A DNA stretch of 64,000 bases, taken from the NCBI GenBank assembly GCA_964023275.1, contig OZ029921.1:31222230-31286229 (forward strand). The letters are read 5' to 3'. The notes beneath the pieces were generated by a model. The model did not search any database and was not told where the DNA came from. It saw only the letters and a program-made list of their open reading frames with translations. This document shows, one piece after another, positions 12,601 to 15,600 of the stretch. The DNA is from Norana najaformis (taxonomy: Eukaryota > Annelida > Clitellata > Crassiclitellata > Hormogastridae). Position 1 is the stretch's first letter; every line of letters begins with the position of its first letter. The position numbers and the translations under genes were made by a program.

Positions 12601-15600
12601 CCTGTAAAATTAACTAATTGTTGATTACAGGCATTTCTTGTCAGCTTGGGTCGAATTTTGATAACGATGCCTGCTGTTGTTTGTTGTAGTCTCGTGTCGT
12701 TGGTCGACACTTCGAAGAGAGGGCCTTCCATATATTTTACCAGCTGATTACTGGTGCTAGGAAAGATATGAAAGGTATGGTCTATTAAAGGTATGATGTA
12801 TCTATGAAAAGTCTAGGAAAGATGTGAAAGGTATGGTCTATTAAAGGTATGATGTATCTATGAAAAGTCTAGGAAAGATGTGAAAGGTATGGTTTATTAA
12901 AGGTATGGTGAATCTATGAAAAGTCTAGGAAAGATATGAAAGGTATGGTTTGTTAAAGGTATGATGTATCTATGAAAAGTCTAGGAAAGATATGAAAGGT
13001 ATGGTTTATTAAAGGTATGGTGAATCTATGAAAAGTCTAGGAAAGATATGAAAGGTATGGTCTATTAAAGGTATGATGTATCTATGAAAAGTCTAGGAAA
13101 GATGTGAAAGGTATGGTCTATTAAAGGTATGATGTATCTATGAAAAGTCTAGGAAAAGATATGAAAGGTATGGTTTATTAAAGGTATGGTGAATCTATGA
13201 AAAGTCTAGGAAAGATATGAAAGGTATGGTTTGTTAAAGGTATGATGTATCTATGAAAAGTCTAGGAAAGATATGAAAGGTATGGTTTGTTAAAGGTATG
13301 ATGTATCTATGAAAAGTCTAGGAAAGATATGAAAGATATGGTTTATTAAAGGTATGATGTATCTATGAAAAGTCTAGGAAAGATATGAAAGATATGGTTT
13401 ATTAAAGGTATGGTCTTGAGTGAAAGTGGAATGTTGAATTTGACTGAGTTTATGAAACTTATAGTCTTGTAAGTGTATAGTCTACGAAAAATTATGGTCT
13501 ATGAAACGTGTGACCTACTTATGGTTTGATTACGTAAGATATGATCTGTGCATGAAAAGTATGGTTGATATCCCCAATAAATCAACGATGCATTGAAATA
13601 TGCAACGTACTGTGTACCTTTCTGGGAACTCTTCTCTCGGTTAAGCGTAGACAGAAAAAATTGGATGTCAATAAAGAACTCAAATGAAATTTCAAAATCA
13701 TCCTTGAAATGTGCAACATATTGCAGACCTATCTGATAACTCTTTTGTTACATAAATGGGAGGAAACTTTGGCAAAGAAAATTAATTTATAAATTAACAC
13801 CTTTGTTGTTTTGATGCTACTTTGTTTTCATTGTAACATAGCAACATCCTTAAACAGCAGGCAGCATTAATAATTTTGTTAGAATACTCAAACAACATTC
13901 AAACAAATTCTCGGATACTAAAACAGTTATTCCTTATGCTCACATTCTAGTATACTGTGGCCCTTTATGATAAGAAATTGGATCTAGAAAATTTATGTCT
14001 GAATGTTCTAGCCACACTCTAGGTATATTGCCGATTGGCTTTATGCAGCATCCAATAATTACACATGATTCCAAAGAGTTACATTACATTATGCGAAGTG
14101 TCTGGTATCTGTTGAAGACGCATTCGGTGTGTCGCAGCTGGACTACTTCAACTATCTGAGCATGAGTGGTGGATACAAAGTTGATGGCACAGATGATGTC
14201 AAAGAGTTTGAGGACACGAGGGTAGGTCATATCATCTGCGAGGCATGGGAAACTGAAAGAACGAAGAAACTAAAGCCTTCAGTTACTTAGTCGTCAGTAA
14301 AAGTATTGGACATATATGCCACATTTTAGAAGCTGCCAAAAAGCTATTCTTATTCGTTCACACTTTCATTCACTGAGGCATAAGTCTTTAATTAATTGGA
14401 ATTATAAATACGATAGAATGTATTTTAGTGTCAAAATACGGCAACAGACGAGTTCAGTGATTCAGGTTGCTGGCTAGATCGCTAATTGGTGTACCGACTT
14501 TAGGTTGGCTAGCTGCTGTTTGGTTGGTTGGCTGAGCGAACACTGAGATTGAAGGAGTCACAAAATTTAATGCAGACAATTATATGGCCAGCTTATGAGG
14601 ATTAATTTAATTGGTTACATGGACTAACTGGTGTCTTACTTTGTTGCATGTAGCGGGCGATGGGTGTCATGGGACTTCAGAGCAGTGATGAAACGGAAGT
14701 TCTGTCTCTCGTCGCGGCTGTTCTTCATCTGGGCAACATCACCTTCAAAGAAAAAGGGAACTATGCCGAAGTTGCAGACAAACAATGTCAGTACAGTGTC
14801 TGCGGCCCCCTCAAATATGCTAATTAAAATACAGGGTGTGATTTTTAGGGGTAAGGGGGGACTTCTGCCTGACTGGGTCATTAGGATGCGTTTTTTCCAT
14901 TTGTTTTGCCTATAGCTCTTGCATTCACTCGATGCCTTGAGCCGCAAATCGCATGCCGCTGATTAAGCATATCAATAATTAAGATAAGTGGCATGCTAGC
15001 ACTTGTAATTACTATTTAGGGAAGTCTACTTAACTGAAAGTATTATGCTAATATGGCTGTAATAGCTGTATTCATCTCGTGATTTATTGTCTTCTTATGA
15101 CTATCACGGTATCCCTTCCACTGATTGGACTCCCTGAACCGTTTAGCGTATGCTGTTTGCACAAGATTGCCTCTGTCACTAAGCTTTCGTTTGGGACAAA
15201 TGCCAAGTGATGGCGCTTGATTCAATGCTACGTGATCCATCATCTGCCAACTCAAAGCGAAATATCATAAACCCCTTTATCCACCCCTTTGCAGTCAATG
15301 GAAGACTCTTAAATACAGTCTCCCATATTCAAAGTGGTACATACATGAGATGTGCACAATATATTACAATTTTTGGTGTAGGGATGTAATTCAGGTCAAA
15401 ACTTAAGACACTCATCTGTTTCAACTTGGCAACCCACCATTGCCTAACTTCTGGGTTCCTTGGCCCATCGGATTTCAACCAGGCTTCTCCAGGGGATCAC
15501 ACCATCAATTGATGGCCTGTGCATTATCATAACGGCGCTATAGAAGTCATTAGATTAGATTAGTAAGGACTGAATGTACATAGCGCCCTATCATCGAACC

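Follow-up and report, generated by a model that had tools for sequence, protein, structure and literature searches.

A tandem array of copied 5' splice sites behind exon 7 of an annelid class-I myosin gene

Minisatellites that span an exon-intron boundary are known from lancelets, where they were named mirages. In the available text they are described for Adh3 and the globin genes BflGb6 and BflGb9 (PMC3087553); a second report extends the list to lancelet troponin C and to PGBD5, where the repeats are imperfect (PMC3902484). The unit lengths given are 10-72 and 150-160 (PMC3087553). According to the accessible parts of both reports mirages leave splicing undisturbed, as indicated by RT-PCR (PMC3087553; PMC3902484). 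Duplications of splice boundaries also figure in accounts of intron gain, i.e., the tandem duplication of an AGGT segment in the potato RdRp gene (PMC4974935) and the duplication of an intron-exon boundary in Rogers' model (cited in PMC3087553). In earthworm metallothionein genes the first introns are described as filled with repeats, and for one clone fourth-exon duplications are reported which are missing from the transcript (PMC12783039).

Here we describe an array which spans the exon 7 donor of an annelid myosin gene. Common to the lancelet mirages, as far as the available text describes them, and to the annelid cases presented below is a minisatellite-like tandem duplication over an exon-intron boundary. 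Further, 5' and 3' boundaries are both affected, many copies carry AG/GT, and the authentic copy is located at the edge of the array. The myosin unit holds 18 exonic bases plus the donor, and its 56 bases lie within the mirage range of tens to about 160. The copies at the boundaries of the BflGb6 cluster are said to escape homogenisation (PMC3087553, available text), whereas the exonic copy 1 of the myosin array is identical to copy 6. With 12 copies and two donors in each, except for a single one in copies 11 and 12, the myosin array is larger than the six and three units given for two BflGb6 haplotypes. The name mirage was coined in cephalochordates; the present host is an annelid, probably a lumbricid earthworm, as matches to the linker family, 2gtl and 3jpz indicate. 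Intron gain by AGGT duplication, in the accounts available, likewise doubles a segment with a splice boundary. In the model of the myosin gene, however, every extra copy sits in the intron that separates exon 7 from exon 8, and a new intron is not seen. The metallothionein genes also present an earthworm intron with minisatellite-class monomers, yet the accessible text does not say of any repeat there that it contains an exon-intron boundary (PMC12783039). CeRep25B of C. elegans resembles the myosin array as an intronic minisatellite close to alternative exons and tied to splicing choices; by the available description it is a family of clustered repeats that carries regulatory motifs, whereas the myosin array is a copied exon junction (PMC4039745). 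Among the open-licence papers listed, no title or beginning of an abstract reports a boundary-spanning array in annelids, which is weak evidence of absence. The kind of structure is already known, the phylum is new as far as this search shows, and the set of equal donors is unusually large.

The window, i.e., the whole stretch of 64,000 nucleotides analysed here, is part of contig C9 in an assembly of 608 Mb and 17 contigs. The erythrocruorin linker family PF16915, presumably annelid-specific, has 29 matches in this assembly. One linker (L1) domain scores 187 bits against 2gtl and 159 bits against 4u8u, entries from Lumbricus and Glossoscolex, respectively. A phosphagen kinase joined from exons on contig C6 reaches 221 bits against 3jpz, the lombricine kinase in the PDB (from Urechis), and at most 180 bits against creatine kinases; the two-domain entries arginine kinase (236 bits) and taurocyamine kinase (231 bits) score this high over the whole chain, their single domains not exceeding 123 bits. 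For a second phosphagen kinase, on C13, the best single-domain entries are mitochondrial creatine kinases with 178 bits, and 3jpz follows with 176. A lancelet origin, considered because mirages are known from that group, is rejected on these annelid markers. GFP (PF01353) has no match in the assembly, a result which is uninformative by itself because a control match was also missing. P450-like matches number 94 in all, most of them in large clusters on C1 and C6 and with long open exons.

The exons of the myosin gene were joined by consensus splice sites, guided by class-I myosin homology (Table 1). The outcome is a single open frame of 1121 codons which ends in ...NNYVQKI and has its sole stop at the terminus. 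Class-I myosins are the top PDB matches for the part of the motor that was searched. We take the gene to be Myo1e/f-like because the end of the tail reads as an SH3-type C terminus. The residues at the exon 7/8 junction, ARKDMK/DAFGVS, align without a gap to 6ui4, a myosin I and the best solved myosin; in the alignments with 4a7f, 1lkx and 6c1d a gap of one residue follows a few positions after the junction. A motif for the counterpart of exon 7 is present in six paralogous myosin loci, and a stricter pattern is present in none. The intron after exon 16 is of the GC-AG type (GCAG/GCAGGTT, window position 20891).

Table 1. Positions of features in the window (a slash between bases marks a splice junction; A/G in brackets denotes either base).
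Feature	Position	Strand	Remarks and basis
Class-I (Myo1e/f-like) myosin gene	529..39385	+	28 exons recognised; model begins at 529, first exon(s) lying upstream
Exon 7	12690..12774	+	85 nt, ends in phase 1; junction homology with solved myosin I
56-bp tandem array	12757..13412	+	11 full copies and a 39-nt partial copy; TRF and copy table
5' splice site AG/GTATGG of copy 1, putatively functional	12773..12780	+	Gene model and protein homology; matrix score 4.80
In-frame TAA, met by any transcript spliced from a later donor	12786..12788	+	Translation
21 further AG/GTATG donors	12789..13413	+	9 TGAAAG/GTATGG (copies 2-10) and 12 TTAAAG/GTATG(A/G) (copies 1-12)
Decayed remains of further array copies	13451..13560 (about)	+	Local alignment
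Exon 8, acceptor partner of exon 7	14118..14221	+	gttgaag/ACGC; gene model and homology
Old degenerate array of about 40-bp units, intron 11	16826..17580	+	Last copy is exon 12 acceptor with first exon bases, tggtgaatag/GAAGAATACG
Exon 12	17568..17738	+	Gene model

TRF describes the array at exon 7 with a period of 56 bp, 11.7 copies, 95% matches and a score of 1177. Splitting at CTAGGAAA gives 12 copy starts (12757, 12813, 12869, 12925, 12981, 13037, 13093, 13149, 13206, 13262, 13318 and 13374). Ten copies have 56 bases, copy 8 has 57 and the partial copy 12 has 39. Copy 1 opens with CTAGGAAAGATATGAAAG, the final 18 bases of exon 7, and continues with gtatgg; here the copy table and TRF agree with the original prediction, which had the unit begin with the last 18 coding bases and the donor. 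It had further proposed 11 more copies in perfect register. The register is indeed kept throughout, an additional A in copy 8 being the one exception; the start of the array was placed correctly, but the end lies three bases ahead of the proposed 13415. The first donor, TGAAAG/GTATGG, is preserved in 10 of the 12 copies and not in about nine as had been estimated; copies 11 and 12 share the same G>A loss. The second site, TTAAAG/GTATG(A/G), was rightly assigned to every copy, yet only eight copies read GTATGA and the other four (3, 5, 8 and 12) GTATGG. The 12 copies comprise 22 AGGT sites, all of equal score, so that the expectation of about 20 near-identical donors facing one acceptor is borne out.

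The 56-bp unit contains AAAGGTATG two times, at a distance of 16 bases; hence the unit may derive from a shorter duplication. Downstream of the array, decayed remains align to the unit with a local score of 38, the five highest of 100 shuffles scoring 23-26. A zero-mismatch search of the 608-Mb genome finds a 27-base core of the unit seven times, each time inside the array; the search may skip common words and leaves room for diverged or masked copies elsewhere.

Copies 1 and 6 are identical, as are 2 and 7, and 4, 9 and 10. One substitution and one inserted base separate copies 3 and 8, and copies 5 and 10 are unlike at three positions. A block of about five units, the exonic copy included, appears to have been duplicated; this internal duplication is visible in the single assembly. 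The identities 1=6, 2=7 and 4=9 suggest that the end of the exon itself probably shared in the recent turnover of the array.

How can a single donor be selected from such a set? With a generic donor matrix all 22 array sites score 4.80 and rank fifth among the 27 donors of the gene. By the same matrix the other introns of the gene (33,761 nt) contain seven sites which score at least as high, and the rest of intron 7 contains none. The predicted duplex with the 5' end of U1 amounts to -6.5 kcal/mol for copy 1 and to -5.7 to -7.3 kcal/mol for the others. Predicted RNA accessibility does not give copy 1 an advantage either: its unpaired probability of 0.001 is the lowest of the 22, the others ranging from 0.003 to 0.039. 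Since the donors score alike, local sequence does not explain a selection of copy 1.

The consequences of a downstream choice can be read from the translation. Sequence gained from a later donor had been expected to be either in-frame or truncating. Truncation is confirmed, all 21 later donors taking in a stop; an in-frame addition is excluded because a TAA follows in frame right after copy 1. Use of the next donor would add GMVY and then the stop. With the first seven downstream donors the exon would measure 101, 141, 157, 197, 213, 253 and 269 nt. That copy 1 is the functional junction, as originally proposed, is supported by the protein homology across exons 7 and 8. Judged by this homology and by the stops behind all 21 later donors, copy 1 is the only array donor compatible with a working motor. 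If splicing is accurate, position and not sequence must separate the 22 donors. In the experiments of Reed and Maniatis with duplicated splice sites, exon context and proximity are said to decide the contest.

A second array exists in the same gene. Among the 54 junctions of the window, self-similarity to the flanking intron reaches z 17.2 at the exon 7 donor and z 6.0 at the acceptor of exon 12; no other junction exceeds 2.5. In intron 11, GGAAGA-type words are found from 16826 onward, and 12 copies of 41 nt can be aligned in register, some of them overlapping. Eleven of these possess 61-85% identity to the remaining one, the reference copy. Four upstream copies retain AG/GAA, and each would add a stop. 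The acceptor used for exon 12 would thus be the last copy, the exon-side one as before. Intron 24 is taken up, from 27654 to 36054, by an array of 8.4 kb whose units measure 24/48 bp (175 copies of 48) and which is open from end to end in one frame per strand (2815 and 2858 codons). The open frame merely follows from the unit and does not point to a gene. As a third boundary-spanning case we compared aacag/GACCgGG of this array with the exon 25 acceptor AACAGGACCTGG; the score of 19 is within the shuffles (maximum 20), and therefore the case is not claimed. By eye, a recurrent dispersed element with variants of taatctaatgacttctatagcgc...ttatcataatgcc was noticed in both orientations, for example near 8560, 15550, 21280, 24280 and 44090; it is probably a SINE-like repeat.

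The survey was extended to 66 loci with exon hits (213 kb), which represent 30 of 96 myosin, all six phosphagen kinase and 30 of 129 kinesin matches. Two loci resemble the cases in the myosin gene. On contig C7 a kinesin exon (locus L068, 1351600-1351842 and upstream) is preceded by five copies of the acceptor gattgrcag at a spacing of 30-36 nt. From any of the first four copies, all three frames encounter a stop before the exon; the last copy fits the exon by homology. On C13 a phosphagen kinase exon (L041, 14328041-14328172) ends with AAAGAG/GTGAGC and is followed 20 bases on by AAAGAG/GTAAGT. The protein fits the first donor only, though the second is the better consensus. In all four cases, exon 7, exon 12 and these two, the copy which is compatible with the protein is the exon-side copy. 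Arrays run right up to the junction at L030, L032 and L056 but do not clearly include it, and at L058 a two-copy repeat starts at the donor. The array at L032 (1178-1499), a degenerate 26-bp repeat, reaches up to a myosin acceptor, and its complement resembles consensus donors (CAGGTAAGT). When only the myosin loci are considered, none of 30 exons is overlapped by an array, and two arrays are located within 15 nt.

Do minisatellites have a preference for exon ends? We examined 184 intron flanks from 65 loci plus the window gene, L033 being left out because it lies in that gene, and counted TRF arrays with a period of at least 10 and a score of at least 50. Of 107 arrays, 17 start no farther than 60 nt from an exon edge, where 7.9 are expected (randomisation p 0.0009), with the limit of 60 nt picked after inspection of the data and the exon edges of the loci taken as the ends of profile matches. 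Without exon 7 and the doubtful loci L066 and L049, 14 remain (p 0.017); without the window gene the count is 12 of 93 against 4.3 expected. Within 20 nt there are 11 arrays, or eight after dropping exon 7, L066 and L049, against 2.8 expected. A cruder Poisson version expects fewer arrays, with 2.3 at donors and 2.7 at acceptors. The loci belong to three gene families, and some of them overlap.

Actual crossing of a junction is not enriched. A crossing score of at least 24 was reached at four of 142 junctions (88 of 130 locus edges with an assignable splice site and the 54 window junctions); of 640 intronic points drawn at random, 44 reached it. Crossing is thus rarer than chance, which is what a resistance of exons to arrays would produce. 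Among the four, the two window cases at exons 7 and 12 are firm; L067 and L041 are doubtful. L067 matches a distant stretch, possibly another exon, and L041 was scored at its second donor (1644) and not at the protein-fitting one (1624). L068 was missed because its unit overlaps the exon by just a few bases. Read cautiously, arrays would grow freely in introns and be stopped by exons, sometimes with the junction included, and such inclusion would be tolerated when the exon-side copy stays usable. A bolder proposal is that in the annelid lineage, independently of lancelets, minisatellites recurrently begin at or pile against exon ends, that junctions thereby feed intron growth, and that many genes carry tandem competing sites of which the exon-side copy is always spliced. 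We advance it tentatively and consider it somewhat less probable than its negation.

For the myosin array itself we regard as probable that it is a boundary-spanning intronic minisatellite of the mirage type, in which the exon-side copy alone gives functional mRNA and which is most likely neutral. A short segment with the 5' splice site and the exon 7 bases just before it would have been duplicated in tandem into the intron and amplified as the 56-bp unit. Slippage or unequal exchange would then have turned the array over, and to this we attribute the identical copies observed. Copy 1 would probably be chosen by its position: it is transcribed first and is closest to exon 7's own acceptor, so that exon definition would pair the 85-nt exon. 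Transcripts from later donors, with their in-frame stop, would presumably undergo nonsense-mediated decay. The array may be tolerated because it lies beyond the used site, in the intron. That exon 12, L068 and L041 obey the same rule supports an exon-side choice.

Alternatively, splicing could be noisy. Several donors would be used, and the array would act as a dosage valve which, by a poison extension, sends part of the myosin transcripts to decay. Twenty-two equal donors, a stop behind every downstream one and the still ordinary exon sizes of 101-269 nt for the first seven speak for such a valve; the lancelet mirages, according to the available text, are reported without disturbance of splicing (PMC3087553; PMC3902484). 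We consider this unlikely. Even less probable, and to be given little credence, is a function as a cluster of U1 binding sites, e.g., against premature 3' end formation, and not as donors. With 22 sites in about 640 nt and predicted duplexes of -5.7 to -7.3 kcal/mol the array is far denser in such sites than the gene's other introns, but this density follows from the repeat itself, and the loss of one donor each in copies 11 and 12 and the decay of older copies are as neutral drift predicts. A collapsed or expanded repeat in the assembly is the least credible explanation, since the copies, though tandem arrays are the usual place of assembly errors, comprise several distinct variants with block structure, are flanked by decayed ones, and junction-abutting arrays recur at independent loci.

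A neutral array with a copy 1 chosen by position thus remains our preferred reading. How splicing selects one of several identical adjacent sites is mostly investigated in constructs; in this gene 22 equal donors occur naturally after one exon. Any wrong choice would be readable as a truncated message, which makes the myosin array clean material for measuring splice-site choice from ordinary RNA reads. The occurrence of several annelid cases suggests a general by-product of minisatellite-rich genomes, with a bearing on intron growth and the origin of new junctions. If arrays do recurrently arise at exon ends, such a genome would amount to the classical experiment with duplicated splice sites, carried out by nature and on a genome-wide scale.
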